NCBI GenBank assembly: GCA_021325275.1
Contig: JAJPHL010000020.1
Location: forward strand, 1 to 55,230
Direction of reading: 5' to 3'
DNA: 55,230 nucleotides
DNA from: Terriglobia bacterium
Lineage (GTDB): Bacteria > Acidobacteriota > Terriglobia > JAJPHL01
Part shown: positions 16,862-48,775 of the stretch, in pieces
How positions within the stretch are numbered: the first letter of the stretch is position 1
How the letters are laid out: every line of letters begins with the position of its first letter
Translations under genes and position numbers: made by a program
Notes under the pieces: generated by a model
The model's input: only the letters and a program-made list of their open reading frames with translations
Database searches by the model: none
Told to the model about the DNA's origin: nothing

Positions 16862-16944
16862 TTAGCCACCGAGACACCGAGAACACCGAGAAAGCCAACA
16901 CCGAGGTTTTGTTTTCTCGGTGTTCTCGGTGCCTCGGTGGCTAA
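16862..16944. repeat. Perfect-type inverted repeat between sigma and anti-sigma genes
   Basis: Arms of about 32 bp: the left begins TTAGCCACCGAGACACCGAG and continues AACACCGAGAAA, and the right is its reverse complement with one mismatch, ending CTCGGTGGCTAA. The arm is three copies of a CACCGAGA-like unit. The loop is about 20 bases. As RNA it would form a very stable hairpin between the sigma and anti-sigma cistrons. It has the same design as the repeats at 11222, 19701, 47005, 48700 and 53509. Confidence 0.9.
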
Positions 16945-16965
16945 ATCAAGATTTGAGGTTGAAAC

Positions 16966-17541
16966 ATGAACTGCGAACAGGCGAACCCCCTTGTCTATGA
17001 ACGCGTGCTCGAAGGCGCCGCCAATGCGGAGTTGGATCGGCATCTGGCGACGTGCGCTTCGTGCCGCGCCGAGTTGGCCGATCTTGAACTGACACAAAAG
17101 CTAATGCGCCAAGCATTGCCGGAAGAAGAACCGCCGCGGCGCATCGCTTTTGTCGCGGAAAAGCCGGCCGCGATGCCCACTTACCATCCGCTGCGATTCT
17201 GGCAGTGGTCGTTTGCGGGAGCCGCGGCGTTCGCATTGCTGTTTGCGGTGCTCGCCGTACGCAAGCCGGCGGCGCCGCCTGCGGGCGACACCTACACGCG
17301 CGCCGAAGTCGAGCAAATTGTCGCGAAGCAAGTGGCGCTGGCGGTCAATGCCAGCGAGCAGCGCCAGCAAGCGCAGATCGCCGCGGTGATCCAAAGCGCC
17401 GGCGAGCGGATGGCCGAGCAGTATCACTACCTGGAGAGCACCCAGACGCAGGTGTATCGCCAGGAAGAACAAAATCGCGCCGAACTGCATCAAGTCGCCG
17501 CGATGGTCGGTGGCGGGCAAGGTGGAGGAGTCCGGCAATGA
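16966..17541 (+). CDS. Zinc-finger anti-sigma factor
   Basis: A 191-residue protein starting MNCEQANPLVYERVLEG. The N-terminal ZAS domain carries C3, H26, C30 and C33 ('LDRHLATCASC'), the zinc-binding H-x3-C-x2-C pattern that holds an ECF sigma factor. One transmembrane segment follows at about residues 80-97 ('SFAGAAAFALLFAVLAV'), then a periplasmic Gln/Glu/Ala-rich coiled-coil region ('VAKQVALAVNASEQRQQAQI') and a Gly-rich tail. It therefore should tether the sigma factor at the inner membrane until an envelope signal releases it. Its stop overlaps the next ATG (ATGA, 17538-17541). Confidence 0.9.
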   Translation: MNCEQANPLVYERVLEGAANAELDRHLATCASCRAELADLELTQKLMRQALPEEEPPRRIAFVAEKPAAMPTYHPLRFWQWSFAGAAAFALLFAVLAVRKPAAPPAGDTYTRAEVEQIVAKQVALAVNASEQRQQAQIAAVIQSAGERMAEQYHYLESTQTQVYRQEEQNRAELHQVAAMVGGGQGGGVRQ

Positions 17542-18080
17542 AAAAGTTCCTATGTGCGCTCGTTCTGGCCGCGTCCGCTCTTACCGCGCAAACACCCGAC
17601 TACCAGAGCGTCAAGAAACAGACGCAACTCTTTGAGACGGTTCTCGACACGGCCGTGCGCCAGCACTACGACCCCGCCAATTTTCTGATGATGCAATCGC
17701 CGCGCGGCGCGTATCTCGAAGGCTACGGCGTGGTCTTCACGCTGGAAGTGAATCTCTACGTGATGCGTTGGGTGAATCCCTTCAATGCCGCGCCCTACTC
17801 GGAAAAGGAAATCGCCGCGGCCAAGGCCGCCAAGCAAGCGCGCATGAAGGAACTGGAAACTTTGATCCGCGATCTGTTGCGCAACAACGGCATGGGTTTG
17901 GATTTCGTGCCGCCGGATGAGAACGTCGCGGTGGTGGTGCATTTGTTCAATCAAGTGGAGCTTCGCGACTTGCCGAGCCAGCTTTCCGTGCAGGTGAAAA
18001 AACAGTGGTTGCAGGAAGCTGCGGGACGCCGTTTGTCCGCCGCGGAGTTCCGGCAAAAGCTTTCCGTCATTTCATTTTGA
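17538..18080 (+). CDS. Secreted protein of unknown function in the sigma/secretion operon
   Basis: A 180-residue protein with a signal peptide (MKKFLCALVLAASALTAQ). The start ATG overlaps the anti-sigma stop by four bases. The mature part has 'MMQSPRGAYLEGYGVVFTLE', 'KELETLIRDLLRNNGMGLDF', and 'ENVAVVVHLFNQVELRDLPS'. I do not recognise a named family. Its position between the anti-sigma gene and gspE, with tight coupling, suggests a periplasmic part of the signalling chain or an accessory of the secretion machine. Confidence 0.75.
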   Translation: MKKFLCALVLAASALTAQTPDYQSVKKQTQLFETVLDTAVRQHYDPANFLMMQSPRGAYLEGYGVVFTLEVNLYVMRWVNPFNAAPYSEKEIAAAKAAKQARMKELETLIRDLLRNNGMGLDFVPPDENVAVVVHLFNQVELRDLPSQLSVQVKKQWLQEAAGRRLSAAEFRQKLSVISF

Positions 18081-18099
18081 CCGTTTCAAAACGTGAAGC

Positions 18100-19692
18100 A
18101 TGAGACTCGGCGAAATTCTCGTTAGCAAAAAACTGCTCGACAGCCAGGAGCTGGAGAAGGCGCTCACGATGCAGTCGTCGCGTCCCGAAAAAATCGGGCG
18201 CATTCTTTCCGACTTGGGCCTGGTCGCTTCGCGCGACGTGCTCGCGGCGCTTTCCGAACAACTCGGCGTGCCGCTGGCGCAGCCGAGCGATTACCCGGCG
18301 GTGACGCCGGAAATCGAAGGACTTTCGCAGCGCTACTTGCGGCAATTCCGCTTCGTTCCGCTGCACGTCGACGATCACACGCTGACCCTGGCGATGACCG
18401 ATCCGCTGGACACCGAAACGATCGCGGCGGTGCGCATGTTCACGCACCTGGATGTGCGCGCCGTGCTGGCGGGCGATACGGAGGTCAACGAAGCGCTCGA
18501 TAAGTTTTATCCGCAGGGCGAGGCGGCGGGGAAATCAGCGGGCATAACGTTCACCGAACCCGGCGAAGCCGACGCCGAAGACATCGAACACCTGCGCGAC
18601 ATGGCCTCGGAAGCGCCGGTGATCCGCTTGGTGAATAACTTGATCGCGCGCGCCGTGGAGCGCCGCGCGTCCGATATTCACTTAGAGCCGTTCGAGCGCG
18701 ATTTCCGCGTGCGCTACCGCATTGACGGCGTGCTCCAGGAAGTCGACGCGCCGTCGCGCGACCTGCGCGCCGCCGTGATCAGCCGCATCAAGCTGATGGC
18801 GCGGTTGAACATCGCCGAGCGCCGCTTGCCGCAAGACGGCCGCATTCAGTTGAAGATTTTAGGACGCGACATCGACCTGCGCGTTTCCACGCTGCCCACG
18901 TTGCACGGCGAAAGCGTGGTGATGCGCTTGCTCGATCGTTCCGCCGGAGACTTCTACGAACTGGCAAATCTGGGATTTCCTCCCCGCTTGTTCGATCGCA
19001 TGACGCACTACATCGCGCGTCCCCACGGGATTTTTCTGGTCACCGGGCCCACCGGCAGCGGAAAATCAACCACGCTGTACTCGGCGTTGAAGCGCATCAA
19101 TCTGCCGGACAAGAAAATCATCACCATCGAAGATCCCGTCGAGTATCAGATGGACGGCATCAACCAAATCCACGTGAATCCGCAAATCGGCTTGACGTTC
19201 GCCGCGGGTTTGCGCCACATCGTGCGCCAGGACCCCGACGTAATCATGGTCGGGGAAATCCGCGACCGCGATACGGCCGACATCGCCATCCGTGCGGCGC
19301 TCACCGGACACTTGGTTTTTTCCACGCTGCACACCAACGACGCGCCGAGCGCGGTCACGCGACTCACCGACATGGGCGTGGAGCCGTACCTGATTGCCTC
19401 CTCGGTGCTGGCGATTCTCGCGCAGCGCCTGGTGCGGGTGCGTTGCAAGGAATGCGGCGGCCAGGGATGCGCGAGCTGCAACAACGGCTATCGCGGACGC
19501 AAGGGAATCTACGAACTGATGGAGATGGACGAAGCCGTGCGGCGCCTGGTGATGCAAAACGCCGACGCCACGCAGATCGCGTCGCAGGCGCGTAAGGCGG
19601 GGATGAAAACGTTGAAAGAAGATGGCCTGGAAAAAGTCGAGCAGGGAATGACGACGATGGAGGAAGTTTTGCGGGTCACGCAGGATTTTTAG
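18100..19692 (+). CDS. gspE: Type II secretion ATPase GspE
   Basis: A 530-residue ATPase. Residues ~1-140 form the N-terminal MshEN-like domain ('MRLGEILVSKKLLDSQELEK'), and residues ~165-530 the motor. Walker A is GPTGSGKS at 316-323; Walker B-like 'DVIMVGEIRDRDTADIAIRA', the His box 'HLVFSTLHTNDAP' and the zinc-binding 'CKECGGQGCASCNNG' follow. It powers pseudopilus assembly from the cytoplasmic face of the inner membrane. PilB is a possible alternative, but the neighbouring genes form a GspE-M/D set. It starts 19 bp after the preceding secreted protein, and its stop is 8 bp before the GxxExxY element. Confidence 0.94.
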   Translation: MRLGEILVSKKLLDSQELEKALTMQSSRPEKIGRILSDLGLVASRDVLAALSEQLGVPLAQPSDYPAVTPEIEGLSQRYLRQFRFVPLHVDDHTLTLAMTDPLDTETIAAVRMFTHLDVRAVLAGDTEVNEALDKFYPQGEAAGKSAGITFTEPGEADAEDIEHLRDMASEAPVIRLVNNLIARAVERRASDIHLEPFERDFRVRYRIDGVLQEVDAPSRDLRAAVISRIKLMARLNIAERRLPQDGRIQLKILGRDIDLRVSTLPTLHGESVVMRLLDRSAGDFYELANLGFPPRLFDRMTHYIARPHGIFLVTGPTGSGKSTTLYSALKRINLPDKKIITIEDPVEYQMDGINQIHVNPQIGLTFAAGLRHIVRQDPDVIMVGEIRDRDTADIAIRAALTGHLVFSTLHTNDAPSAVTRLTDMGVEPYLIASSVLAILAQRLVRVRCKECGGQGCASCNNGYRGRKGIYELMEMDEAVRRLVMQNADATQIASQARKAGMKTLKEDGLEKVEQGMTTMEEVLRVTQDF

Positions 19693-19700
19693 GAAAAATG

Positions 19701-20164
19701 CACCGCCGATAAACGCCGATGAACGCCGATAGATTCGCCCAAGCAGCAGCGACGAAGACCGACCAGCAGCGGATGGATGAGATTTCTCATCTCGTCAACG
19801 GTTGCGCGTTTACCGTGTCCAACACGCTCGGTACGGGCTTCCTCGAGAAGGTCTATGAAAATGCTTTGGCGTATGAAATTCGACTGGCTGGTCTTCGTGT
19901 GGAGCAGCAAAAGTCCGTGGCCGTGAAGTATCGAGAGATCGAAGTTGGCAGCTATCTGGCAGATCTGGTGGTCGAAGATGTCCTGCTCGTCGAATTGAAA
20001 GTGGCGAAGGCCCTCGACGAGGCTCATGTAGCACAGTGCTTGAATTATTTGAAGGCCACGGGTCTCTCTGTTTGTCTTCTGCTGAATTTCGGAAAGTCGA
20101 AGGTTGAGATCAAACGTTTGGTGAGCCACTTCTGATCGGCGTTCATCGGCGTTTATCGGCGGTG
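19701..20164. mobile_element. GxxExxY element with perfect 30-bp terminal inverted repeats
   Basis: Bases 19701-19730 (CACCGCCGATAAACGCCGAT then GAACGCCGAT) are the exact reverse complement of 20135-20164. The single gene inside starts within the left repeat (ATG 19719) and its TGA stop ends on the first base of the right repeat. The element sits precisely in the gspE-gspF junction. Gene-less relatives of the repeat are at 11222-11303 and 53509-53617. No transposase is present. I infer a mobile or formerly mobile unit; mechanism and mobility are not shown by the sequence. Confidence 0.8.
19719..20135 (+). CDS. GxxExxY protein (PD-(D/E)XK nuclease-like family)
   Basis: A 138-residue protein. 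It has the family's defining motif 'NTLGTGFLEKVYENALAYEI' (GxxExxY: G-F-L-E-K-V-Y) at about residues 36-55. The nuclease-like core follows: 'LRVEQQKSVAVKYREIEVG', 'YLADLVVEDVLLVELKVAKA' with D, E-L-K, and 'HVAQCLNYLKATGLSVCLLL', then 'LNFGKSKVEIKR'. D...ExK agrees with a PD-(D/E)XK fold, and the lysine and acids look intact. No biochemical role is established for the family. The first codons (MNADR) are read from the left inverted repeat and the stop touches the right one. It interrupts the gsp operon in the sense orientation. Confidence 0.9.
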   Translation: MNADRFAQAAATKTDQQRMDEISHLVNGCAFTVSNTLGTGFLEKVYENALAYEIRLAGLRVEQQKSVAVKYREIEVGSYLADLVVEDVLLVELKVAKALDEAHVAQCLNYLKATGLSVCLLLNFGKSKVEIKRLVSHF

Positions 20165-20173
20165 CTTTTTCTT

Positions 20174-21403
20174 ATGCCTGAATTTTTTTACAAAGCGATC
20201 AGCGGTGACGGCAAGCTCCTGGAAGGCTCGCTCGTCCGCGATACCGAACGAATGGTGGCGCGCGAGCTCACCATCGGCGGTTTGACGCCGGTGTACGTCG
20301 GCGTCCAGCGACAGAAAGGCGGCGGGAGCCTCTCCTTCGATCCCGCCGCTTTGCTGCGCCGCAAGCCGGGCGCGGCCGATCGTTTGTACTTCACGCAAGA
20401 ACTCGCCACGCTGCTCGAAGCCGGATTGCCGCTCGATCGCGCGCTGTCCATCGCCGCGGAGTTGAGCGAGCGTCCGGCGTTCCGCACTGTAATTCAAGAA
20501 ATTTTGCGCGAGCTCAAGGGCGGCAAATCGCTCACCGATGCGCTCGGCACGCATCCGGAGGTTTTCTCGGAGCTCTATCGCAACATGGTGCGCGCCGGCG
20601 AAGCGTCCGGATCGCTCTCGCAAGTGATGCTGCGGCTCGCGGAATCGGAAGCGGCGTCGACGGAACTGCGCGGCTTCCTGATTTCCTCGATGATCTATCC
20701 GTCGTTGTTGGCGCTGGTCGGCATTGGATCGGTTTCGCTGATGCTCGGCTACGTGATCCCGAAATTCTCCGAAGTTTTCAAGGAATCGGGCTTGCCGATC
20801 CCCGTGCCGACGCAAATTTTGCTGACCATCAGCGAATACACGCAGAGCTACGGCCTGTGGGTATTGGGCGCGGTGATCGCCGCGATCGTCGCGTTTCGTT
20901 TTTGGGTCTCGACCCCAGACGGCCGCATGCGCTGGGACGCGTTCAAGCTGCGCGCGCCGGCCATCGGTCCGATCGTGGTGCGCGCAGAAACGGCGCGTTT
21001 CGCGCGCAGCATGGCGACGCTCGTGGCCAACGGCGTGCCCCTGGTGCAATCGCTGCGCATCGGAAAAAGCATGCTTGGAAACAAAGTGATGGCCGACGCC
21101 GTCGACACCATCGCGCAGGGCGTGAAGCGCGGCGAAGGATTGGCCGCGCCGTTGCGACGCTCGGGCGCGTTTCCGTCGCTGGCCGCGCATTTGTTGCAAG
21201 TGGGCGAAGAAACCGGACGCCTCGACTCGATGTTCACGCGCATGGCCGACATTTACGACGCCGAAACGCGCACGACGGTGCGGCGGGCCACGGCGCTTTT
21301 CGAGCCGGTGGTGATTCTGACCATGGGATTACTCGTGGGATCAATGGTGCTTTCCATGATGCTGGCGATTGTCAGCATGAACGATGTGCCGTTTACGAAA
21401 TAA
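20174..21403 (+). CDS. gspF: Type II secretion inner-membrane platform protein GspF
   Basis: A 409-residue protein with two GspF domains, each with the characteristic helical core: 'LYFTQELATLLEAGLPLDRA' (about residue 70) and 'ARFARSMATLVANGVPLVQS' (about residue 275). Three membrane segments are visible at about 170-195, 215-240 and 378-402. It is the platform on which GspE drives pseudopilin insertion. I chose ATG 20174; no Shine-Dalgarno precedes it. GTG at 20162, formed by the last bases of the GxxExxY element, is in frame (GTG CTT TTT CTT ATG), and the ATG at 19698 next to AGGA would be in frame if the element were removed. Confidence 0.92.
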   Translation: MPEFFYKAISGDGKLLEGSLVRDTERMVARELTIGGLTPVYVGVQRQKGGGSLSFDPAALLRRKPGAADRLYFTQELATLLEAGLPLDRALSIAAELSERPAFRTVIQEILRELKGGKSLTDALGTHPEVFSELYRNMVRAGEASGSLSQVMLRLAESEAASTELRGFLISSMIYPSLLALVGIGSVSLMLGYVIPKFSEVFKESGLPIPVPTQILLTISEYTQSYGLWVLGAVIAAIVAFRFWVSTPDGRMRWDAFKLRAPAIGPIVVRAETARFARSMATLVANGVPLVQSLRIGKSMLGNKVMADAVDTIAQGVKRGEGLAAPLRRSGAFPSLAAHLLQVGEETGRLDSMFTRMADIYDAETRTTVRRATALFEPVVILTMGLLVGSMVLSMMLAIVSMNDVPFTK

Positions 21404-21413
21404 CGGGGTGACT

Positions 21414-21845
21414 ATGCGACGTACAAAACGGAATGAACGCGGTATCACGCTGATTGAGCTGCTGGTCGTGGTGACGATCATTGGATTGTTCGCCGCCTTG
21501 GTGGCTCCGCGCTTGTGGAACAAGGTGAGCGCTGCGAAGACCACCGTGGCGAGACAGCAGATCAATGATTTTGAAACCGCGCTCGGCGCGTACAAGCTCG
21601 ACACGGGACGCTTTCCGACTACCGATCAAGGCCTACAAGCGCTGCGCGTGAAACCGCAAGGCATCGAGCGTTGGGACGGTCCGTATTTGCCGAAGGACAT
21701 TCCGATGGATCCGTGGGGGCGCGCTTACATCTACAAGTATCCCGGCGATCACGGCGATGAGCCGGACATCATGTCGTACGGCGCGGACGGTAAAGACGGC
21801 GGCGAAGGTGAAGACGCCGATATCTGCAGTTGGAAGAGCAAATAA
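21414..21845 (+). CDS. gspG: Major pseudopilin GspG
   Basis: A 143-residue protein with a class III signal: 'RNERG' followed by 'ITLIELLVVVTIIGLFAALV', cleaved after Gly by a prepilin peptidase, with Glu at +5. The C-terminal half is typical of GspG: 'LDTGRFPTTDQGLQALRVKP', 'GPYLPKDIPMDPWGRAYIYK' and 'YPGDHGDEPDIMSYGADGKD', the calcium-binding loop. It builds the shaft of the pseudopilus. Start ATG at 21414, 10 bp after gspF, preceded by a GGGG-type ribosome site. No prepilin peptidase gene (gspO/pilD) is in the window. Confidence 0.95.
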   Translation: MRRTKRNERGITLIELLVVVTIIGLFAALVAPRLWNKVSAAKTTVARQQINDFETALGAYKLDTGRFPTTDQGLQALRVKPQGIERWDGPYLPKDIPMDPWGRAYIYKYPGDHGDEPDIMSYGADGKDGGEGEDADICSWKSK

Positions 21846-21847
21846 CA

Positions 21848-22276
21848 ATGCGACGCGGGATCACACTCATCGAACTGCTCGTGGTCATGACGCTCGTGGG
21901 ATTACTGGCGGCGGTGGCCGCGCCTTCGATCGGCTCGGGCATCGAGACGGTGCGACTGCGCGCATCGGGCGAGCGTCTGGCGTCGACGATGCGGCTGGCG
22001 CGCACGCGTGCGGTGCGCTTGCGCCATTACATGCAAGTGAGTGTCGATCCGAAATCGAACGAAGTTTCCTTACGCGATCTCGAGGGAAATTCGGTGTCCA
22101 CGTGGGAGATTCCGCCGACCGTCGCGGTGTTATCCGATCGTCCCATGGCGTTTTTGGTCTATCCCGATGGCGGCGAGCAAGCCATGCGCGTGGGATTGCG
22201 GAATCAACGGGGACGAACGCTGGAAGTTTCCACCGATCCGTTCACGTTGTTTCCGTCAGTGAGGGAATTGCCGTGA
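21848..22276 (+). CDS. gspH: Minor pseudopilin GspH
   Basis: A 142-residue type II pseudopilin with a short leader (MRRG) and 'ITLIELLVVMTLVGLLAAVA'. A GspH/FimT-like body follows ('ERLASTMRLARTRAVRLRHY', 'MQVSVDPKSNEVSLRDLEG'). It is the minor pseudopilin of the shaft side. The start is ATG 21848, 2 bp after gspG. The stop overlaps the gspI GTG start (GTGA, 22273-22276), so the two are translationally coupled. Confidence 0.88.
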   Translation: MRRGITLIELLVVMTLVGLLAAVAAPSIGSGIETVRLRASGERLASTMRLARTRAVRLRHYMQVSVDPKSNEVSLRDLEGNSVSTWEIPPTVAVLSDRPMAFLVYPDGGEQAMRVGLRNQRGRTLEVSTDPFTLFPSVRELP

Positions 22277-22668
22277 AGAAAGGCTTCACCATTCTCGAAG
22301 TGCTGGTCGCCGTGGTGATCCTCGGCAGCGCGGTCGCGGCGATTTCCGGCGTGCTCTCGACCTCGATGCGCAACATCGGACGCGCCGAGGAGTACGAGCG
22401 TGTCACGTTGCTGGCGCGCGCTCAAATGAACGAATTGTTGGCGCTGCCGGTGTGGCGCGACGGCACGCAGTGGAACGGCCAGTGGGCCGGCGACTATCGC
22501 TGGACCGCGCAGGCCAACGCGATTCCTCCGGCCGACCCGCAAGCGGGCTACTTGCTGGTGCGCATGACGCTGGTCGGCATTTGGAAAACATCGCGCGGCG
22601 AGAAAACTTTCACGCTGGAAACAGCGCGGATTCAAACGCGCGACGAAACGGCGCCTTCCCGTCGATGA
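22273..22668 (+). CDS. gspI: Minor pseudopilin GspI
   Basis: A 131-residue protein starting at GTG 22273: leader MKKG then 'FTILEVLVAVVILGSAVAAI', a canonical pseudopilin N-terminus with Glu at +5. A middle part with 'ARAQMNELLALPVW' and the short length agree with GspI of the tip complex I-J-K. It overlaps gspH upstream and gspJ downstream by four bases each. Confidence 0.87.
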   Translation: MKKGFTILEVLVAVVILGSAVAAISGVLSTSMRNIGRAEEYERVTLLARAQMNELLALPVWRDGTQWNGQWAGDYRWTAQANAIPPADPQAGYLLVRMTLVGIWKTSRGEKTFTLETARIQTRDETAPSRR

Positions 22669-23369
22669 ACAGACGTTCCCAACGCGGCGTAACACTGGTG
22701 GAACTGCTCGCAGCGATCACCTTGCTGGGATTCGTGTCGCTGGCGCTGTTGTTCGCCATGCGCATCGGTGTCAACGCTTGGCAGCACGGCGACCGGCGCA
22801 TGGCGGCGGATCGTAGCGTAGTCGCGGCGGCGGACTTGATCTCCGCGCAGCTGGGAGACGCGCGCGCCCACAACGTCGGTTGGGGGCCGCTCGAGCGCCG
22901 GGTGTCGTTTCTGCTCTTCGACGGCGCTGCCGACCGCTTGCAATTCATCACGCACAATTCGGTCGCGGCGCGCGAGCGCGGCGGATGGTGGTTGGCGGAA
23001 TATTGGTTCGAGCACGACGCGCGTAACAATTGCCGTCTGCTTTACAACGAATATCCTTTCCAGTCGGACGCGGACGCGGCGGCGGTGGTCGATCAAGTCG
23101 GTCCCGGCGCGAACGGGTTGCTCGCGGTTCAGTATCGCGCGCCGAGAATCTCGGCGAACACGCGCGTCCTCTATACCGGGATTCACGATTGCGCCTTCGA
23201 GTACCTGATCGAGCCGCAAGATCAACCGGTCTACTGGGGAAAATTTTGGCCCGGCGACAATTACAAGTTGCCGCGCGCCGTCGCGGTGCGTTTTGCGGGT
23301 GAAGGTGTCAGGGGAATCGCGCCGGTCGCCACGGTGGCGATGATCAACGCGCGGGAGGTGTGGCCATGA
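22665..23369 (+). CDS. gspJ: Minor pseudopilin GspJ
   Basis: A 234-residue protein: leader MNRRSQRG then 'VTLVELLAAITLLGFVSLAL', followed by a larger globular part ('VAAADLISAQLGDARAHNVG', 'RLQFITHNSVAARERGGWWL', 'FEYLIEPQDQPVYWGKFWPG', 'LPRAVAVRF'). Its size and position between I and K identify it as the GspJ tip pseudopilin. Start ATG at 22665 overlaps the gspI stop; its own stop overlaps the gspK ATG. Confidence 0.86.
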   Translation: MNRRSQRGVTLVELLAAITLLGFVSLALLFAMRIGVNAWQHGDRRMAADRSVVAAADLISAQLGDARAHNVGWGPLERRVSFLLFDGAADRLQFITHNSVAARERGGWWLAEYWFEHDARNNCRLLYNEYPFQSDADAAAVVDQVGPGANGLLAVQYRAPRISANTRVLYTGIHDCAFEYLIEPQDQPVYWGKFWPGDNYKLPRAVAVRFAGEGVRGIAPVATVAMINAREVWP

Positions 23370-24226
23370 TTCCAGCGTCACGCCAGAAAGGTTCCGCCCT
23401 TCTCTCGGTGCTGTGGATCACCGTGGTTTTGGGATTCGTAGGCATGGCATTGGCGGCGAATGTGCGATCGGAAGTGGAATCGACGCGCTTGCTCGCCGAA
23501 TCGGAGCAGGGATATTTTCTGGCGCGCGCAGGAATCGAAGCGGGTCTGCTGCGCCTGACCACTCCGCCGGCCGATCCGCGGCAAGCGGAAGCGGAAATGA
23601 CTTTTCGCGCCTACGATTTTCAATTTCAAACCGGCGCCGTTCACATCGACTACGTCCCGGCGTCGGCGCTTTACAACGTGAACGTCGCGCCGCCGGGAAT
23701 GCTCTTCGCGCTGCTTCAGGAATTGGGCGCGCCCGACGCCCAGGCGCGCGCCATTGTCGAGCAGTTGAATCAGTATCGTCATCCGAACAAACAACGGGAT
23801 GCCGCGGCGCTGGAATCCATCGACGAATTGCTGACGCTGCCGGCGATGACGCCGGAATTGTTCTACGGCAGTTTTGTGGCGGGACGCCGCCGCCCCGGCG
23901 TGGAAGACGTGTTGGGCGTGTACGGCGCGGGTGAGACGGTGAACGTGAACTACGCGCACATGGAACTGTTGGCGGTGCTGCCGGGAATGAGCGAAGCGTG
24001 GGCGCGGCAATTCGTGGCTCTGCGGCCGTTCCGTCAACTCGACGCGCGGAAGACGCCGCCGAGCGTGTCGCTGGGCGATTCCAACGCCTTCGCGCTGATC
24101 GCGCACGGCCGCGCCAATATCGGCGGCGTGCCGTCGGACATCGAGCGCGCGATTCGCGCCGACTACGTACGGGATCAGAAATCGCCGCGCGGATTGCGCT
24201 TGATCAACTGGCACGAAGTGAATTGA
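23366..24226 (+). CDS. gspK: Tip pseudopilin GspK
   Basis: A 286-residue protein with leader MIPASRQKG then 'SALLSVLWITVVLGFVGMAL'. As usual for GspK, the +5 glutamate of other pseudopilins is absent. Next come 'AESEQGYFLARAGIEAGLLR', a large insertion and two helix-hairpin-helix-like parts ('LNQYRHPNKQRDAAALESID', 'LLAVLPGMSEAWARQFVALR'), the family's SAM-like domain. It caps the pseudopilus and with I and J starts its assembly. ATG 23366 overlaps the gspJ stop. Confidence 0.88.
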   Translation: MIPASRQKGSALLSVLWITVVLGFVGMALAANVRSEVESTRLLAESEQGYFLARAGIEAGLLRLTTPPADPRQAEAEMTFRAYDFQFQTGAVHIDYVPASALYNVNVAPPGMLFALLQELGAPDAQARAIVEQLNQYRHPNKQRDAAALESIDELLTLPAMTPELFYGSFVAGRRRPGVEDVLGVYGAGETVNVNYAHMELLAVLPGMSEAWARQFVALRPFRQLDARKTPPSVSLGDSNAFALIAHGRANIGGVPSDIERAIRADYVRDQKSPRGLRLINWHEVN

Positions 24227-24234
24227 CCACTCCT

Positions 24235-26093: not shown

Positions 26094-26102
26094 GAGACTC
26101 TT

Positions 26103-40662: not shown

Positions 40663-40675
40663 GATCGATCAGGAA

Positions 40676-40998: not shown

Positions 40999-41207
40999 GT
41001 ATCTCAGTTTGAATTCTAGCGGCTCCGCCGCTGCTTTGTGCGGAAGGGCTAGGCCCTTCCGCGAAGCACCTTCGTTAGGATTGCGAGGCTATGTCTTGCT
41101 CAAGCAAGACATAGCCTCGCAAGAAGGTGGCTCTAGTCCTTCGGAAAGGCACAGCCTTTCCGCACAAAGTAGCGGCGAAGCCGCCAGAAATTTCAACCTA
41201 TGACACC
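40999..41207. repeat. Palindromic dispersed element, copy 1
   Basis: An imperfect inverted repeat: the ends read AGTATCTCAGTTTGAATTCT..GCGGCTCCGCCGC on the left and GCGGCGAAGCCGC..AGAAATTTCAACCTATGACACC on the right. Nested hairpins (GGAAGGGC/GCCCTTCC; GGAAAGGC/GCCTTTCC) flank a central perfect palindrome of two 20-bp arms at 41081-41100 and 41103-41122. About 65 bp at 41129-41192 match 43250-43314 of copy 2 nearly exactly. It lies just upstream of the CoA-ligase gene. No coding potential is seen. Confidence 0.85.
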
Positions 41208-41240
41208 GCCCGGCTTCCAAAAGCCCGCGCCTTGAAGCCG

Positions 41241-41246
41241 TATAAT
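41241..41246 (+). promoter_or_regulatory. Consensus -10 box (TATAAT) before the CoA ligase
   Basis: TATAAT ends 10 bp before the ATG at 41257 and overlaps an earlier in-frame ATG (41245), which argues that the later ATG is the true start on a very short leader. Confidence 0.45.
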
Positions 41247-41256
41247 GGAATTCCCG

Positions 41257-42783
41257 ATGCCTGCGCGTGTGTTGCCCTTTCCCGATCGTTTCAACGCCGC
41301 GGAGTTTTTCGTGGATCGCGCGGTGACCGAGCATGGATGGGGCCAGCGCACCGCGTTTCGCTACCAAGGCCGTTCGATCACCTATCAAGAAACGGCCGAG
41401 ATGGTGGCGCGCGCGGCCGGCGCCCTGCTCGCGTCCGGAGTTCGCGCGGAACAGCGCGTTCTGCTGGCGCTGCCAGACTCTCCCGATTTTGTCACCGCAT
41501 TTTTTGGCGCGATCAAGGCGGGAGTGGTGCCGGTGCCGGTGAACACGTTTCTCGACGGGCGCGACCTGCGCTATTACCTCGACGATTCGGGAGCGGCGGC
41601 GCTGATTGTCCATCGCGACCTTGTGGATCGCGTGAAATCCGCGCTGCCGTCGTTGACGATCGTTGCTGGAGAAGGCGGGGATTGGGAGCTGCGCCTCGCC
41701 ACGGCTTCGCCGCTCACCGGCGCCGCGTCCACGCATCCCGACGACATGGCGTTTTGGCAATACACTTCGGGATCCACGGGCGCGCCGAAAGGCGCGGTGC
41801 ATTTGCACCGCGACATGGTGTACGCCGCGGACGTTTACGCGATCCCCACGCAGCGGCTCACGCCGGAAGACCGCATTTTCTCGGCGTCGAAAATGTTTTT
41901 TGCTTATGGATTGGGGAACTCCCTCTTTTGTCCCCTGCGCGCCGGAGCGAGCGCCCTGCTCGCGCCCGAGCGTCCGACGCCGGAAATGTGTTTGCGTACC
42001 ATCGAATCGGAGCGTCCCACGATTTTCTACGCCGTGCCGACACTCTACGCCGCGATCCTGAATCATCCGGGCAATTACGACACGTCGTCGCTGCGTCTGG
42101 CGGTGTCGGCCGGTGAAGCGCTTCCCGCGGAAATCTTCCGGCGCTTCCAAGACCGCTTCGGTGTGGAAATCATCGACGGCATCGGCTCGACGGAGATGGC
42201 ACACGTTTTCATCAGCAACCGTCCGGGCGAGTGCCGTCCCGGGTCAAGCGGACGATTGGTCGACGGTTACGACGCGCGCATCGTGGACGAGGCCGGCTGC
42301 GATGTGGCCGACGGCGAGATCGGCAACCTGCTGATTTCGGGCGGCAGCGCGGCGGCGTTCTACTGGCGCAAGGCGGCGCAAACGCGCTCCACGATGCTCG
42401 GCGAATGGTTGCGCACCGGCGACAAATATCGCCGCGACGCCGACGGATACTATTGGTACTGCGGACGCTCCGACGACATGATGAAGTCGAGCGGGCAATG
42501 GGTGTCACCGGCCGAAGTGGAAGGCGCGCTGCTCGAACATCCCGCGATTCTGGAGTGCGCGGTCGCGGCGGTCGCGGGCGATGACGGTGTCGCGCGGCCG
42601 CGCGCGTTTATCGTTTTGCGCGACGCCGCCACCCAGCCGAGCCAAGAAGCGTTTCGCGAGTTCCTTCGCGCGCGCATCGCGCACTTCAAAGTACCGCACA
42701 CTTTCGAAGTCGTCACGGAATTGCCGAAAACGGCGACCGGAAAGATTCAGCGCTTCAAGCTTCGCGAGCAAGGTCCGCGCTAG
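41257..42783 (+). CDS. Benzoate-CoA ligase family AMP-forming acyl-CoA synthetase
   Basis: A 508-residue ANL-superfamily enzyme. Motifs: A3 P-loop 'WQYTSGSTGAPKGAVHLHRD' (TSGSTGxPK), A5 'IDGIGSTEMAHVFISNRPGE', A7 'WLRTGDKYRRDADGYYWYCG', A8 'RSDDMMKSSGQWVSPAEVEG' and the A10 lysine in 'LPKTATGKIQRFKL'. The 'GIGSTEM.HIF' type A5 and 'DDMMK.SG.WVSP' type A8 are those of benzoate-CoA ligases, but the exact aromatic acid is not decided. It activates an acid with ATP and CoA in the cytoplasm. It stands alone between two palindromic elements, with no ring-reduction or transport genes nearby. Confidence 0.85.
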   Translation: MPARVLPFPDRFNAAEFFVDRAVTEHGWGQRTAFRYQGRSITYQETAEMVARAAGALLASGVRAEQRVLLALPDSPDFVTAFFGAIKAGVVPVPVNTFLDGRDLRYYLDDSGAAALIVHRDLVDRVKSALPSLTIVAGEGGDWELRLATASPLTGAASTHPDDMAFWQYTSGSTGAPKGAVHLHRDMVYAADVYAIPTQRLTPEDRIFSASKMFFAYGLGNSLFCPLRAGASALLAPERPTPEMCLRTIESERPTIFYAVPTLYAAILNHPGNYDTSSLRLAVSAGEALPAEIFRRFQDRFGVEIIDGIGSTEMAHVFISNRPGECRPGSSGRLVDGYDARIVDEAGCDVADGEIGNLLISGGSAAAFYWRKAAQTRSTMLGEWLRTGDKYRRDADGYYWYCGRSDDMMKSSGQWVSPAEVEGALLEHPAILECAVAAVAGDDGVARPRAFIVLRDAATQPSQEAFREFLRARIAHFKVPHTFEVVTELPKTATGKIQRFKLREQGPR

Positions 42784-42787
42784 AGAG

Positions 42788-43327
42788 TGGTGTCTCAGTT
42801 TGAATTTCTAGCGGCTCCGCCGCCCTGTAGTTTGGACATTTCTCGTGCCACGTTGGCGAGCGTTCGGTTACATTCTGTCCCCGAGCCTGCGCAGCAGGCG
42901 GTACAACGTTAGCCCCAGGCGTCAGCCTGGGGGAAACCCAGCAGCAACAATGAGCCTGCGAAGCGGGCGGCACAAACGCTTCACCATTTTGGCCGTCAGG
43001 TCCACACGTGTTTCTCTTCGAACTCGATTCCGTGCGCGCCACAACTCTCTCGGGACTCGTCCTCGAAGGCCATGCTTCGATGGTGCTGCTGCTGGCGCCT
43101 GGCAAGGTGTTTGTGCCGCCAGCTTCGCAGGCTCGTTCTGTTGGTCCGTCTTCCCCAGGCTCACGCCTGGGGCTAACGTTGTATCGCCTGCGATGCAGGC
43201 TTAGGGGACGCCGTCTTCCACCGCAAGTCGCCTGCTACGCAGCAAGGTGGCTCCAGTCCTTCGGAAAGGCAAAGCCTTTCCGCACAAAGTAGCGGCGAAG
43301 CCGCTAGAAATCCAAACTGAGACACCA
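42788..43327. repeat. Palindromic dispersed element, copy 2 (540 bp, near-perfect terminal inverted repeats)
   Basis: The outer ~36 bases match as inverted repeats with about two mismatches (left TGGTGTCTCAGTTTGAATTT.., right the complement ..AAACTGAGACACCA). Inside, long arms repeat in inverse: GAGCCTGC..GCAGGC, AACGTTAGCCCCAGGC..GCCTGGGGCTAACGTT and CCTGCGAAGC..GCTTCGCAGG, around a unique centre near 43000-43110. No significant reading frame is present. The right end shares about 65 bp with copy 1. It fills the space between the CoA-ligase gene and the minus-strand secreted protein. Confidence 0.87.
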
Positions 43328-43344
43328 TCCGCTAGAGCCAAAGA

Positions 43345-44709
43345 TTACATCTTCCCAATTCCCTCGATGATCGCCGCCAGCGCCTCACGGAATTTCTCGG
43401 GCGAATCGGCGTCCATGATTTTCGGCTTCAGCGGTTTCAACAAATCGTGCATCGGGACCGTCTTGTCGTCGAGCGATCCCGGTCCAAAATCACTGTCCGG
43501 TATCGTGCCACCGAGTCGCCCCGCGCGGCCGCTACTTACGTCATCGTTCGAATTTAATACCGAAATGCGCGGCGGCGCGCCGGCGGGCGGAAGCAGGTGC
43601 GTCATCATCGGCGGATGATAGCGTAGAAAAAAGAATTTGCCGTCGCGCGATCCCTCAATCGCGGCGGGTTTTCCGGCGCGCCCCACCGATCCCGGCGCCG
43701 TGAGCATGATAATCACCGGCGCCGCGTCGCCGCGCCGCTCGTCACCCTCGAGATTCGGCCGCACTCGTTTGCGAATTTCCGCCGTCGCGAAGTCGGCGTC
43801 TTCGCCGGGCTTCTCGAGAGCATGCACGTCGATCACGTTGGGATTCGATTGGTCGAGTGCCACGCGCAATTCGCTCCATGAAATCGCGCCATCTTGGACC
43901 GGCACGGCTACGGCGCGGCGATGTTGCACGTCGAGCAGCGTGATGTTCACCGTGCCGTTGGTCAGCGACATTTGCGCCAGCACCTTCATCCGCGCCACGA
44001 GTGCCGCCATCGACTCGCGATAAAACTGATCGCCCGCCTGCGTGCGCGGCAAGTTCACGATCACCTCCACGCGCACCGCACGCTTGGAAGCCACCGAGAG
44101 CCGGACGTGGTCCGTGGCGTCGGGATGAAACCACTCTTCGGTCTGTGTTTCCTTGCCCAAAATCTCCGCCGGCGTCATTCGCTCCCACAGATTCGGCAGC
44201 GGATCGTTTTTCAATGGCGCCACGTGCACCGACGTACGGCTGAAATCGTGCTCGCCCGTGGCGCGATGCAACATGGCCATCGTGAATTCGTAGTCGCCGG
44301 GTATGACTAGCGCGCTGTGCGTGTAGACGAACTCGGCGTGGCGCACGTCGTCGTCCGCTTCGCTCAGCGGAACGTTGGTGTGTCCTTGATAGACGTGGCC
44401 GCGGCTGTCTTTGATTTGCAGCAGCATCAGCAAGTCGTCGTCTTTTGTGCTGGAACGCTTGGCGAGATTCTTTCCGTCGATCGTGGCCGTCGCGGTCACC
44501 AGGAATCGCTGGTGCTCGTCGAGAACCGGGGACGAAATCTTGGTTCTCCACGGGACTTCCGCGCGATCGCCTTGCGCTTCCCATTGATCGAAGGGAATGG
44601 TGGAGAAAATCGCGTCTCGCGCGTCGCCCGGCGGCGCTTGCGCACAGACCGGCAGGGCCATCAGAATCGCGGCCAACCAGACGGGCCGGTGCGGAACGAG
44701 CCTGAACAT
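43345..44709 (-). CDS. Secreted protein of unknown function
   Basis: A 454-residue protein with a signal peptide (first ~24 residues, ending 'MALPVCAQA'). The first half looks like an Ig/propeller-type beta structure ('KISSPVLDEHQRFLVTATAT', 'VPGDYEF'-like, 'YTHSALVIPGDYEFTMAMLH'). The middle ('VRVEVIVNLPRTQAGDQFYR', 'VARMKVLAQMSLTNGTVNIT', 'LLDVQHRRAVAVPV') and 'VIIMLTAPGSVGRAGKPA' recall the VWFA-related exported proteins frequent in Acidobacteriota, but a clear MIDAS motif is not visible. The start ATG 44709 is 24 bp from the divergent kinase start. Function unknown. Confidence 0.75.
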   Translation of the reverse strand: MFRLVPHRPVWLAAILMALPVCAQAPPGDARDAIFSTIPFDQWEAQGDRAEVPWRTKISSPVLDEHQRFLVTATATIDGKNLAKRSSTKDDDLLMLLQIKDSRGHVYQGHTNVPLSEADDDVRHAEFVYTHSALVIPGDYEFTMAMLHRATGEHDFSRTSVHVAPLKNDPLPNLWERMTPAEILGKETQTEEWFHPDATDHVRLSVASKRAVRVEVIVNLPRTQAGDQFYRESMAALVARMKVLAQMSLTNGTVNITLLDVQHRRAVAVPVQDGAISWSELRVALDQSNPNVIDVHALEKPGEDADFATAEIRKRVRPNLEGDERRGDAAPVIIMLTAPGSVGRAGKPAAIEGSRDGKFFFLRYHPPMMTHLLPPAGAPPRISVLNSNDDVSSGRAGRLGGTIPDSDFGPGSLDDKTVPMHDLLKPLKPKIMDADSPEKFREALAAIIEGIGKM

Positions 44710-44721
44710 CTACTCTTACTG

Positions 44722-44727
44722 TAAACT
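44722..44727 (+). promoter_or_regulatory. -10-like box (TAAACT) before the histidine kinase
   Basis: TAAACT ends 6 bp before the ATG at 44734. Only 24 bp separate the two divergent start codons, so at least one of the genes must use a leaderless transcript or a promoter inside its neighbour. Confidence 0.35.
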
Positions 44728-44733
44728 ATCCGC

Positions 44734-45636
44734 ATGGATGTGGGCGGACGTCGTAAATCGATAGCCGTCTTCATTACGCTTTGCGCCGTCACCGTCATAC
44801 TCGCTGTGGCGTTGCAAGTCGGCTGGAGCGTAGTGAATTGGCGCACGGCGTGGATGCTGGTGCTGGGCACGCTTCTGTTTCCGCTGATCATCGCGGGCAT
44901 CGTGCTGAACACCACGTTCCTGGTGCGCGAAATCCGCCGCAACGAGCAGCACAACAGTTTCATCAATGCGGTGACGCACGAGTTGAAGACGCCGGTAGCG
45001 TCGATTCGCTTGTATCTGGAAACGCTGCGCACCCGCAACGTGGACGACGTGCGCCGCCAGGATTTTTACCGCATCATGCTGGAAGATAGCGACCGCTTGC
45101 TCGGCACCATCGAGCAAGTATTGCGCGCGGGATCCACCTCGCAGGCCAGCCGCAAGCTGCATCTTACGCCCGTGGACATGCGTGAGATGGTCCGCGATTG
45201 CATCGCGCTGGCGCGCACGCGTCACCATTTGCCCGAGGACGCACTCGACTACATCGAACAACTCACCGATCCCGAGCAAGCCACGGTGATGGGCGATCTT
45301 GAGGACCTGAAAGCCGCGATTTCCAATTTGCTCGACAACGCCATCAAGTATTCCGGAGAAAACGTGCAAGTGCTGGTGGAAGTGGCCGCCGATCCCAAGG
45401 GCGTCACGGTGCGCGTGAAGGATCACGGCGTGGGAATTCCGCGCGACGAACTGAAGCGTGTCTTCGAGCGCTTTTATCGCGTGCCCGGCGCGATGAAATC
45501 GCGTGTGCCCGGCGCGGGCTTGGGACTTTCCATTGTGGAGTCGGTGGTGCGCAAGCACGGCGGCAAAGTGGAAGTGTCGAGCGACGGTCACGACCGCGGC
45601 AGCACGTTCACGCTGACGTTGCCGGCCATGAAGTAA
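44734..45636 (+). CDS. Sensor histidine kinase without adjacent response regulator
   Basis: A 300-residue kinase with two membrane segments (~residues 10-30 and 38-62) and almost no periplasmic loop, so it probably senses the membrane itself or a partner. The HisKA domain has the H-box 'FINAVTHELKTPVASIRLYL' (phospho-accepting His about residue 84). The HATPase part has N 'NLLDNAIKYSG', G1 'VKDHGVGIPRDEL', F 'VFERFYRV' and G2 'GAGLGLSIVESVV'. No HAMP domain is seen. No receiver-domain gene is next to it; the following gene is an HExxH membrane protein 7 bp downstream, likely cotranscribed. Confidence 0.92.
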   Translation: MDVGGRRKSIAVFITLCAVTVILAVALQVGWSVVNWRTAWMLVLGTLLFPLIIAGIVLNTTFLVREIRRNEQHNSFINAVTHELKTPVASIRLYLETLRTRNVDDVRRQDFYRIMLEDSDRLLGTIEQVLRAGSTSQASRKLHLTPVDMREMVRDCIALARTRHHLPEDALDYIEQLTDPEQATVMGDLEDLKAAISNLLDNAIKYSGENVQVLVEVAADPKGVTVRVKDHGVGIPRDELKRVFERFYRVPGAMKSRVPGAGLGLSIVESVVRKHGGKVEVSSDGHDRGSTFTLTLPAMK

Positions 45637-45643
45637 AACCCGT

Positions 45644-46210
45644 ATGGATCTTCTGTTCGGCTATTCGATTCCCGGCGCTGAATACGATTGGAAACGCGTC
45701 TCGAAACCGGCGTGGATCGCCTCGACGGTGTTCTTCATCTTTACGATTTGGATGTATCGTCCCAACGGGACGCCCTATCTCGACGCCGTTCATTTGGTGA
45801 CGCACGAAGCGGGGCATCCGTTGTTTTCGTATCTCCACAACTACGTTCTTACCGTCGCCGGCGGGACGATTTTCCAACTCTTTGTGCCCGCGGCGCTGAC
45901 GATTTGGTTTGCCTACACCGGTCAAACCACGGGCACGGCATTTTGCGGGTTCATGTTTTTCAATTCGTTCATCAACATAGGCACGTACATGGCCGATGCC
46001 CGCGCGCGCGTGCTGCCGCTGGTGGCGCCGGGCATGTCGTCGGACGAAATTACCGAGCACGACTGGAATACTCTTTTCGAACAAGCAAACCTGCTGCGCC
46101 ACGACGTACAAATCGGCAACGCGACCAAGTTAATCGGGTACCTTGGAATGGTTGCGATGATCGTGTGGCTGGCATGGATGAAAAAGAATCTCGACGAAAA
46201 CGCTGAGTGA
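45644..46210 (+). CDS. Multispan membrane protein with HExxH motif
   Basis: A 188-residue protein with about four hydrophobic segments ('WIASTVFFIFTIWMY', 'GGTIFQLFVPAALTIWFAYT', 'AFCGFMFFNSFINIGTYMA', 'LIGYLGMVAMIVWLAWM'). 'AVHLVTHEAGHPLFSYLHNY' contains H-E-A-G-H, a zinc-metalloprotease-type HExxH at a membrane face. Together with 'FFNSFINIGTYM' and a later 'HDWNTLF' it recalls small site-2-like (M50-type) conserved proteins, but the third ligand is not certain. It lies between the kinase and an SDR gene on the same strand. Role unknown; membrane proteolysis is an inference. Confidence 0.72.
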   Translation: MDLLFGYSIPGAEYDWKRVSKPAWIASTVFFIFTIWMYRPNGTPYLDAVHLVTHEAGHPLFSYLHNYVLTVAGGTIFQLFVPAALTIWFAYTGQTTGTAFCGFMFFNSFINIGTYMADARARVLPLVAPGMSSDEITEHDWNTLFEQANLLRHDVQIGNATKLIGYLGMVAMIVWLAWMKKNLDENAE

Positions 46211-46226
46211 TGGCGCGGGGTGAAAT

Positions 46227-46994
46227 ATGGGGCACTCTCTGGACGGACAAGTTGCACTGGTGACCGGCGGCGCGCGCGGTTTGGGCTACGACATTTCCCG
46301 CGCCTTGATCGCGGAAGGCGCGACGGTGGTGATGATGGCGCGCGATCCCAACATCACCGCTGCGGCCGCGGCGGAATTGGGAGCGGTCGCGATGCCGGGA
46401 AGCGTGACCAGCGAACAAGATGTCGCGGGCATTTTCGCCGCGATCAACGAACGCTTCGGCCGTTTCGACATTTTGGTGAACAACGCCGGCATCGGCGGGC
46501 CGGCCGCGCCCGTGGAGCAAGTCACCGCCGCGCAGTGGTCGGAAGTGATCGATATCAACTTGACCGGCGCGTTCCTCTGCGCGCGCGAAGCGGTGAAGAT
46601 GATGAAGCCGGCGCAACGCGGACGCATCGTGAATATTTCTTCGATGGCGGGACGCATCGGCTACGCGCTGCGCTCGCCCTACGGCGCGTCGAAGTGGGGC
46701 ATGATCGGATTTTCGCGCGCGCTGGCGGCGGAACTGGGCGCCTACAACGTTTGCGTGAACTCCGTGCTGCCCGGCGCGGTGGAAGGCGATCGCATCGACC
46801 GCGTGATTCGCGATCGCGCGGCCGCGATGGACGTGCCGGAATCCGCAGTGCGCGGCGATTACGTAAAGGCTGCCGTGCTGCGCCGCATGGTGCGCGCTTC
46901 CGATATTTCCGCGATGGTGGTTTTCCTGTGCGGCGAAGGCGGTGCGAATATCACCGGTCAAGCGATTGAGATCAGCGCCGGCAGTTACCTATAG
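46227..46994 (+). CDS. Short-chain dehydrogenase/reductase
   Basis: A 255-residue classical SDR: the Rossmann entry 'ALVTGGARGLGYDISRALIA' (TGxxxGxG), 'DILVNNAGIGG' (NNAG), 'IDINLTGAFLCAREAVKMM', and catalytic 'IVNISSMAGRIGYALRSPYG' then 'ASKWG' (S...Y-x3-K). It ends in 'ITGQAIEISAGSYL', the family C-terminus. The cofactor preference is not decided by eye. It oxidises or reduces an unknown alcohol or ketone. The start ATG 46227 is 16 bp after the preceding membrane protein gene. Confidence 0.92.
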   Translation: MGHSLDGQVALVTGGARGLGYDISRALIAEGATVVMMARDPNITAAAAAELGAVAMPGSVTSEQDVAGIFAAINERFGRFDILVNNAGIGGPAAPVEQVTAAQWSEVIDINLTGAFLCAREAVKMMKPAQRGRIVNISSMAGRIGYALRSPYGASKWGMIGFSRALAAELGAYNVCVNSVLPGAVEGDRIDRVIRDRAAAMDVPESAVRGDYVKAAVLRRMVRASDISAMVVFLCGEGGANITGQAIEISAGSYL

Positions 46995-47004
46995 CCCAAA
47001 GATT

Positions 47005-47079
47005 TTGTCACCGCAGAGACGCAGAGGAGGCAGAGAAAACCAACTCGGAGTTTTTCTCTGCGTCTCTGCGGTGAAAAAA
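47005..47079. repeat. Inverted repeat (CACCGCAGAGACGCAGAGG type), probable bidirectional terminator
   Basis: The left arm is TCACCGCAGAGACGCAGAG, the right arm CTCTGCGTCTCTGCGGTGA, with A/T runs on both outer sides (TTTTG before, AAAAAAA after). It lies between two convergent genes (SDR and M28 peptidase). It shares the arm design of the other palindromes here but has a different unit (CGCAGAGA). Confidence 0.88.
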
Positions 47080-47089
47080 ACCGCCGGTA

Positions 47090-48676
47090 TTACTTTGCGA
47101 ATCGCTTGAAGAAACTCGCGTCCTTCCACTTCGGACGTTCCGCGCGATCCGCGACCGTCGCCGCGATTTCTCCCAGAACGCGATTGAAATCGGCGGCGGC
47201 CTGCTTGTCGACCGGTTGTTGCAAATCATCCGACGGCGCGTGATAGCGTTCCGCGATCCATTTGCGTGAAATCTCCGCTTGCGGCGAGCCGGGCTCGTAG
47301 CCGTCCTTAAACGCCAGCGACGGAATCCCTTTGCGAATGAAACTGTACTGATCGCTGCGCACGAAGCGATTGCGTTGAGGCTCGAGATCGGCCTGCACCG
47401 CGACACCCGCTTGCTTCGCGACTTCGCGCGCCACATCACCCAGGTCCGATTCATCGAGCCCCAAAACCATCATGATTTTGAACGGAAACAGCGGCAGAAA
47501 CATGTCCATGTTCAAGTCCGCGACGATCGGTCCGTTCACGGTGGGATGGGCCGCGTAATAGCGCGATCCGAGCAAGCCTTTCTCTTCGCCGGTCACGGCG
47601 ACGAAAACGATCGAGCGCTTGAACGCGCGCTTGCGATCGTGAAAACTCTGCGCCATGTCGATGAGTGACGCCACGCCCGACGCGTTGTCCATGGCGCCGT
47701 TGTAGATTCTGTCGCCGTTAATGGGCTGCCCGATGCCCAAGTGGTCGAGATGCGCGGAAATCGCCACAAATTCGTTTTTCAATCGCGGATCCGTCCCCGG
47801 CAGCACGCCCGCGACGTTTTGCGACGTAACCTGCGACGTTTCCATTTTCACGCGGGAGCGAATCGTGCCGGGAATCGCGAAATGCGGTAACGCTTCCCCG
47901 CGATCCGCAATCGCCAGCAGTTCGGCGATGGTGTGTCCGCTGCCTTCCAGCAATTTGTCGGCGTGCTTGGCGTTGAAGTTCACGGCGATCTTCATCCCGT
48001 CGCCTTCGTTCAGCGCCGCTTCGGCCAAACTCATCGCCGGTTGCAGGCGCGCGAGCGTGGCGCGTTCCCACGGAACGTCGGTGATCTTCGGGTTGGCGAT
48101 CGTGATCGTGCCAACGGCGCCCGACGCCTTCAGAAACTGTCCGCGCTCGCCGGCGGAAGAAAAATGGGCCAGCAACGGTCCCGGAATTTGCTTCGGTCCG
48201 CCGGTGATGTACACCACGACTTTGCCTTTCAGAGGCAGACCTTTGAAATCGTCGAAGGAAAGATCGGGAACCGTGAGTCCATAGCCGACAAAATAAAGCG
48301 GCGCCTCCGCCGCCGGAGCGGGTGCGCCGCGCGCCGCGATGTTGGCCTCTTCACCGAGCTTCAGTGCTTCCGCTTTGCCGTTGCGCACCAGTTCCAGGCT
48401 CGATTGCTCTTCGATCACTTTACGCACGTCGAATTTCACCGGCTGGATGAATCCGTTTTTTCCGGATGTGTCGCCTGCGGGTTGCAGTCCCGCCGCGGCG
48501 AATTGCTGCGCGACATATTCGGCGGCCTTGCGATGTCCTTCGCTGCCCGTGTTGCGACCCTCGAGGTCGTCGGAAGCGAGAAACGAGACGTGCTTCCACC
48601 AACGATCGGCGTCTTGCGCGCGCGCCAGGACAAAGCAGCCGGCCAGCATCAAGGTCGAGAGGAGAATGCGCTTCAT
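47090..48676 (-). CDS. Secreted M28-family zinc aminopeptidase
   Basis: A 528-residue exported peptidase, start ATG 48676 (MKRILLSTLMLAGCFVLARA). After 'HVSFLASDDLEGRNTGSEGH' comes a PA-domain insert ('KGKVVVYITGGPKQIPGPLL'). The M28 catalytic part has 'FVAISAHLDHLGIG' (H and D ligands), 'NGAMDNASGVASLIDMAQSF' (bridging D), 'IVFVAVTGEEKGLLGSRYYA' (catalytic E-E), 'VADLNMDMFLPLF' and 'YQFI'-like 'SDQYSFIRKGIPSLAF'. It would remove N-terminal residues from peptides outside the cytoplasm. An open extension upstream of 48676 runs into the intergenic repeat and is not used. Confidence 0.93.
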   Translation of the reverse strand: MKRILLSTLMLAGCFVLARAQDADRWWKHVSFLASDDLEGRNTGSEGHRKAAEYVAQQFAAAGLQPAGDTSGKNGFIQPVKFDVRKVIEEQSSLELVRNGKAEALKLGEEANIAARGAPAPAAEAPLYFVGYGLTVPDLSFDDFKGLPLKGKVVVYITGGPKQIPGPLLAHFSSAGERGQFLKASGAVGTITIANPKITDVPWERATLARLQPAMSLAEAALNEGDGMKIAVNFNAKHADKLLEGSGHTIAELLAIADRGEALPHFAIPGTIRSRVKMETSQVTSQNVAGVLPGTDPRLKNEFVAISAHLDHLGIGQPINGDRIYNGAMDNASGVASLIDMAQSFHDRKRAFKRSIVFVAVTGEEKGLLGSRYYAAHPTVNGPIVADLNMDMFLPLFPFKIMMVLGLDESDLGDVAREVAKQAGVAVQADLEPQRNRFVRSDQYSFIRKGIPSLAFKDGYEPGSPQAEISRKWIAERYHAPSDDLQQPVDKQAAADFNRVLGEIAATVADRAERPKWKDASFFKRFAK

Positions 48677-48699
48677 GGTCTCATTTGTATCACGGCGGA

Positions 48700-48775
48700 T
48701 TGAGCCAGAAAAAGACAAAGGATACAGAGAGCGAATCGGTTTTCTTTGTGTTCTTTGTGTCTTTGTGGTTCAATG
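48700..48775. repeat. Degenerate inverted repeat (CACAAAGA type)
   Basis: The right arm (about 48741-48775) is the complement of TTGAACCACAAAGACACAAA followed by GAACACAAAGAAA; the left arm (about 48700-48732, TTGAGCCAGAAAAAGACAAA..) is a diverged copy. The unit CACAAAGA repeats three times per arm, the same arrangement as the CACCGAGA repeat at 16862. It lies between the divergent peptidase and permease genes, directly before the permease start. Confidence 0.7.

Follow-up and report, generated by a model that had tools for sequence, protein, structure and literature searches.

GxxExxY genes, triple-word inverted arms and gene-less palindromes: a probable new family of selfish DNA elements

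The stretch of DNA analysed in this study (the window) is 55,230 nt of a contig from a Terriglobia bacterium. It carries long palindromes of several sequence classes and, among them, a gene of the GxxExxY family. This raises the question of what these palindromes are, and of whether the GxxExxY protein has a part in their spread. Five gene-less palindromes and one gene-bearing element were found in the window:

11215-11310, unstranded: gene-less palindrome of the CGCCGAT/CGCAGAT class, unit spacing 10, with 39-nt arms that are 90% complementary.
16862-16944, unstranded: gene-less palindrome, CACCGAG-A-CACCGAG-AA-CACCGAG, unit spacing 8,9.
19690-19730, plus strand: left arm of the gene-bearing element, CGCCGAT-AAA-CGCCGAT-GAA-CGCCGAT, units at 19704-19730.
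19719-20135, plus strand: GxxExxY gene, 138 aa, predicted PD-(D/E)XK nuclease.
20135-20174, minus strand: right arm of the gene-bearing element, units at 20135-20161.
47003-47079, unstranded: gene-less palindrome, CGCAGAG-A-CGCAGAG, with 24-nt arms that are 96% complementary.
48700-48775, unstranded: gene-less palindrome of the CACAAAG class with a degenerate left arm.
53509-53618, unstranded: gene-less palindrome, CGCCGAT-AAA-CGCCGAT-GAA-CGCCGAT, with 41-nt arms that are 90% complementary.

The arms are tandem arrays of 7-bp units of the general form C-R-C-N-R-A-D. The first-pass annotation had listed palindromes at most of these places; those at 16862 and 53509 were recovered there, those given as 11222 and 47005 begin at 11215 and 47003, and the one at 48700 has a clean arm only on its right side (CACAAAG-A-CACAAAG-AA-CACAAAG, 48744-48767, minus strand). 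A sixth, at 19701, proved to be the left arm of the gene-bearing element. The same annotation described one layout, with three units per arm joined by A and then AA. Three units are indeed usual, but the left arm at 11215-11310 has four (CGCCGAT, then three CGCAGAT) and the third unit at 47003-47079 is degenerate (GGCAGAG). The linkers are common to CACCGAG, CACAAAG and, roughly, CGCAGAG, all with spacing 8,9, but not to CGCCGAT/CGCAGAT, with spacing 10,10. At 16862-16944 the arms are 92% complementary over 37 nt, with 9 nt between them. A strict scan found 10 arms in the window, versus 0.4 in random sequence matched for dinucleotide composition, so the window arms are not a product of chance. 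They are denser here than in the other sampled parts of the genome, where 363 kb yielded 13 arms, and class counts for the source genome rest on samples of it. The window also contains a perfect 20-bp inverted repeat, TTGCGAGGCTATGTCTTGCT, at 41081-41122 with 2 nt between its arms, which is unrelated to the units.

Folded as single strands, the window hairpins lie 7.5 to 15 SD below shuffled sequences; neither Rfam RNA families nor rRNA were detected in the window. Such very stable predicted RNA hairpins could be regulatory, acting as terminators or mRNA stabilisers, with GxxExxY acting on them as a regulator or processing enzyme; two of the window palindromes do lie between convergent genes, and some copies have flanking A/T runs. 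However, other copies are located inside operons and between divergent genes, their positions vary between close species, and different classes replace each other at one site. A regulatory origin is thus very improbable in our judgement.

In the gene-bearing element (19690-20174), the gene starts within the left arm, where its ATG is located, and ends with a stop codon that touches the right arm; the neighbouring genes are T2SSE on one side and T2SSF on the other. That many GxxExxY proteins begin with residues encoded by such units, as had been proposed, applies to 23 of 111 loci, where an in-frame ATG lies in the arm (e.g. MNHKDTKDTKK), but not to the others. The protein encoded at 19719 is a member of TIGR04256 (GxxExxY; 135.3 bits, curated cut-off 35) and matches PF13366 (PDDEXK_3; 8.9e-40), PDDEXK_3/GxxExxY alone being above cut-offs. 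The residues E, D, ExK, Q and Y are conserved among GxxExxY proteins, which fits the predicted PD-(D/E)XK catalytic set. A sequence search for homologues in the PDB returned none. The structure model, built with 49 relatives, has a pLDDT of 93, and its core is nearest to the Cas4 protein SSO0001 (Z 11.3, 100 residues, 3.2 A), with weaker matches to the Hjc Holliday resolvase (Z 8.7) and LHK exonuclease (Z 8.2). The protein is therefore predicted to have the fold and catalytic residues of a PD-(D/E)XK nuclease. If the enzyme worked on cruciform or hairpin DNA in the manner of a resolvase or exonuclease, a palindrome would be a fitting substrate, although the shared fold alone is no proof of such a function.

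The source genome contains seven GxxExxY genes, with arms of the classes CACAAAG (L001), CACCGAG (L002), CGCAGAG (L003 and L004), CGCCGAT (L005), CACAGAT (L006) and CACGGAA (L007); in L004 the palindrome lies entirely upstream of the gene. The CACAAAG, CACCGAG and CGCAGAG classes, which were first noticed as gene-less palindromes and might have had no connection with the family, thus each bracket or adjoin a GxxExxY gene. Among relatives and the wider phylum, a scan detected arms in 79 of 103 full-length loci. A second, independent set comprised 80 named loci from the GLLE side of the family, spread over at least 16 phyla and including an archaeon; a strict triple-unit C-R-C-N-R-A-D arm was present within 350 bp in 68 of them, and on both sides in 37. 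At some loci (L011, L021, L037, L061, L062 and L094) the gene stands beside rather than inside the palindrome, with the nearest arms reversed or with whole palindromes arrayed on one or both sides. Phylum labels change 33 times on the protein tree (48 with shuffled labels; the minimum possible is 15), indicating frequent crossing between phyla. GxxExxY was present in 0 of 50,697 phages and 7 of 72,556 plasmids; a phage or plasmid origin was rejected on these counts, and the spread looks chromosomal. A search of the literature on GxxExxY, TIGR04256, PF13366 or the unit sequences, with preprints and most subscription papers outside it, returned no report of flanking arms. Together, the GxxExxY genes, the triple-word arms and the gene-less copies suggest a family of selfish DNA elements that has not been described before.

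If these are related elements whose ends have diverged along with their proteins, as had been suggested, the unit class should follow the protein. For cross-genome pairs below 60% protein identity, unit distance was correlated with protein identity at a Spearman coefficient of -0.52 (Mantel test; null SD 0.046; reached in 0 of 1000 permutations), and spacing at -0.24 (0 of 1000). On the protein tree of 161 pairs, the unit changes 73 times versus 113 with shuffled labels, the spacing 50 versus 99, and the last base of the unit 8 versus 29. This last base follows the deep GFLE/GLLE split: T-ending units pair with the GFLE/NYLK clade (24 of 26 loci), and G-ending units with the GLLE/TYLK clade (about 125 of 130). 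Restricting the comparison to the named loci weakens the unit signal to -0.17 (1 of 1000) and gives -0.29 for spacing (0 of 1000). A per-residue specificity scan mainly recovered the deep clade split and identified no contact residues. Judged by sequence comparison, unit class and spacing track the protein lineage across genomes. This agrees with the proposal that each unit class has its own GxxExxY clade, as an association in which the two phylogenies match in part. The GxxExxY protein may accordingly be what reads the arms.

The arms of resident genes recur in the gene-less palindromes, spacers included and several of them exactly. In the window, the arm at 53519 is identical to that of L005, and the arm at 48744 to that of L001; elsewhere, the arm at L141:2735 is identical to that of L006, and the arms of L144 are like those of L107 and L052. 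The palindrome at 16862-16944 has the same arm as gene L002, that at 47003-47079 has arms like those of genes L003 and L004, and the unit array at 53509-53618 is the same as in the arm of the gene at 19719. In genus g71, palindromes at two fixed sites match the arms of the resident genes better than those of random gene sets (3 of 5000 permutations); in G241 and G185 the residents do not match the local palindromes. In G045, a one-contig genome (L063-L078), a gene-deleted derivative that keeps both CACAAAA arms and the last 43 codons of the GxxExxY gene has been amplified to at least 15 copies, and it sits in a larger mosaic repeat with further arm classes nested around it.

Arms also occur in some gene-negative genomes. 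By the strict (8,9)-GAG pattern, at least one match was found in 12 of 35 gene-positive versus 6 of 26 gene-negative genomes, so that mere presence is unassociated with the gene (Fisher 0.40); at least three matches were found in 10 of 35 versus 1 of 26 (p 0.017), and total matches were 229 versus 24, 16 of the latter in G005. When ten gene-negative genomes were sampled over 200 kb, no arms were found. The idea that palindromes occur only where the gene is was rejected by the genome-wide pattern search, and with these exceptions the claim was lowered to arms being more abundant with the gene. The gene-negative arms checked in G005 (L400, L416), G029 (L402, L418), G013 (L403) and G057 (L399) were unpaired; G014, with no detectable GxxExxY gene, has kept paired arms.

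Orthologous sites were compared at three gene junctions of genus g71 in up to 31 species and at one junction of genus g78. Depending on the species, a junction is empty or is occupied by a gene element or by a palindrome, the class of which varies. At g71 site 3, ten species have a bare junction of exactly 45 bp; three have a GxxExxY element of class CGGTGAT. G109, which lacks the gene, is empty at g71 sites 1 and 2 and has kept a palindrome at site 3. The g78 junction holds, in some species, a roughly 480-560 bp insert whose arms consist of GATTCCA-type units, and one such insert contains a short protein stretch with a weak Pfam match to the 23S-IVP family. At three g71 sites, one g78 site and one g15 site, neither a certain target-site duplication nor a clean excision joint was found, and the G016/G024 comparison showed a degenerate remnant left behind. 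At g71 site 3 (L431, L433 and L439), CTCAG(G) flanks the insert on both sides in three species; it may be a target duplication of 5-7 bp, or a ribosome-binding site and stop codon that mimic one.

Such differences could also arise by homing or conversion, if the palindromes were old fixed sites and GxxExxY cut palindromes of another class or without a gene; repair of the break from its own copy would then rewrite the class and insert the gene. Different classes do stand at the same sites in sister species, and G356 has one class at two sites, matching its gene. However, homology-directed conversion explains neither the exactly empty sites of the ten species nor inserts with unrelated arms at the same site, and we consider this route unlikely.

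A different protein family also has arms of this kind. About 23 of 30 loci with four-helix-bundle genes (TIGR02436/PF05635; L296-L325, e.g. L303, L301, L297, L307 and L311) show inverted arms of tandem 7-mers with period 7, whose units are unrelated in sequence to those of the GxxExxY arms. The intervening sequence (IVS) in the 23S rRNA of Coxiella encodes a four-helix-bundle protein, has three tandem GACAGAT heptamers before the ORF, and is suspected to be a relic of transposition (PMC4990558). Since an unrelated family shows a like layout, the nuclease may not be the mover of the element. This parallel is the strongest reason to doubt the nuclease as the lone mover; it also widens the finding. 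The mover could be a transposase acting in trans, or host enzymes acting on hairpin-prone DNA, with the GxxExxY and four-helix-bundle proteins as cargo or helpers. That four-helix-bundle genes lie in unrelated 7-mer arms, that an insert of their type occupies the same orthologous site, and that arms persist in genomes without a GxxExxY gene would all be expected from this. Against it, the unit class follows the GxxExxY lineage, and the five Y1_Tnp genes of the source genome lack such arms, bar one dissimilar, chance-like match. We hold a separate mover to be rather unlikely. Movement as REPINs by a RAYT was rejected, as the Y1_Tnp genes present in the genome are without these arms.

These palindromes are probably selfish elements, whose gene-bearing form encodes a class-specific GxxExxY nuclease and whose gene-less forms are its non-autonomous derivatives. 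The full-length form would consist of a GxxExxY gene between two inverted arms of three (sometimes four) 7-bp units, 8-10 bp apart, and the short form of both arms without the gene. The protein would recognise the unit array of its own class and cut or nick the palindrome as duplex, cruciform or hairpin; host repair or replication would then copy the element to, or remove it from, the space between genes, and short forms of the same class would ride along, as REPINs do with RAYTs. To our knowledge, no nuclease-only transposase is known.

It is possible, and we put it forward tentatively, that GxxExxY represents a novel type of mobilising enzyme, a stand-alone PD-(D/E)XK nuclease acting on palindromes of its own class of 7-bp words, and that together with the IVP genes it forms a large pan-bacterial group of heptamer-armed selfish elements, which would explain many heptamer and palindrome repeats between genes that have so far lacked an explanation. 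The finding provides a concrete substrate hypothesis for an orphan nuclease family that is very widespread, and dozens of natural unit/protein pairs become a possible source for reading a recognition code. GxxExxY and the 23S-IVP four-helix bundle, two unrelated small proteins, are linked by one repeat architecture, and the origin of intergenic heptamer and palindromic repeats, an old question, becomes testable.

Among known systems, REPIN/RAYT is the closest analogue (PMC3116915, PMC8266576). Both consist of short, intergenic, hairpin-forming palindromes of two inverted repeats in many copies, and in both the repeats that make up the short copies also flank a gene, with the repeat class paired with the protein; REPINs have been proposed to stem from the termini of a full-length selfish element (PMC3116915, PMC8266576). 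Unlike REPIN/RAYT, the elements described here encode a predicted PD-(D/E)XK nuclease instead of an HUH/Y1 transposase, their arms are arrays of 7-bp units, and several gene classes occur per genome. The 23S rRNA IVS (S23p/IVP) likewise places a small gene in a stem with tandem heptamers and is under suspicion as a relic of mobility (PMC4990558), but its units have period 7 without spacers and its known cases are in 23S rRNA (PMC4990558), whereas the protein here is GxxExxY, not PF05635, and the element lies between T2SSE and T2SSF genes. With Cas4/RecB-type nucleases and Hjc resolvases the protein shares a predicted fold and catalytic layout; unlike the case of Cas4, the window offers no CRISPR/cas or recombination gene context, and the similarity to Cas4 profiles is weak. 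As in MITEs and DNA transposons, terminal inverted repeats are common to the long and short forms, but here without a DDE transposase.
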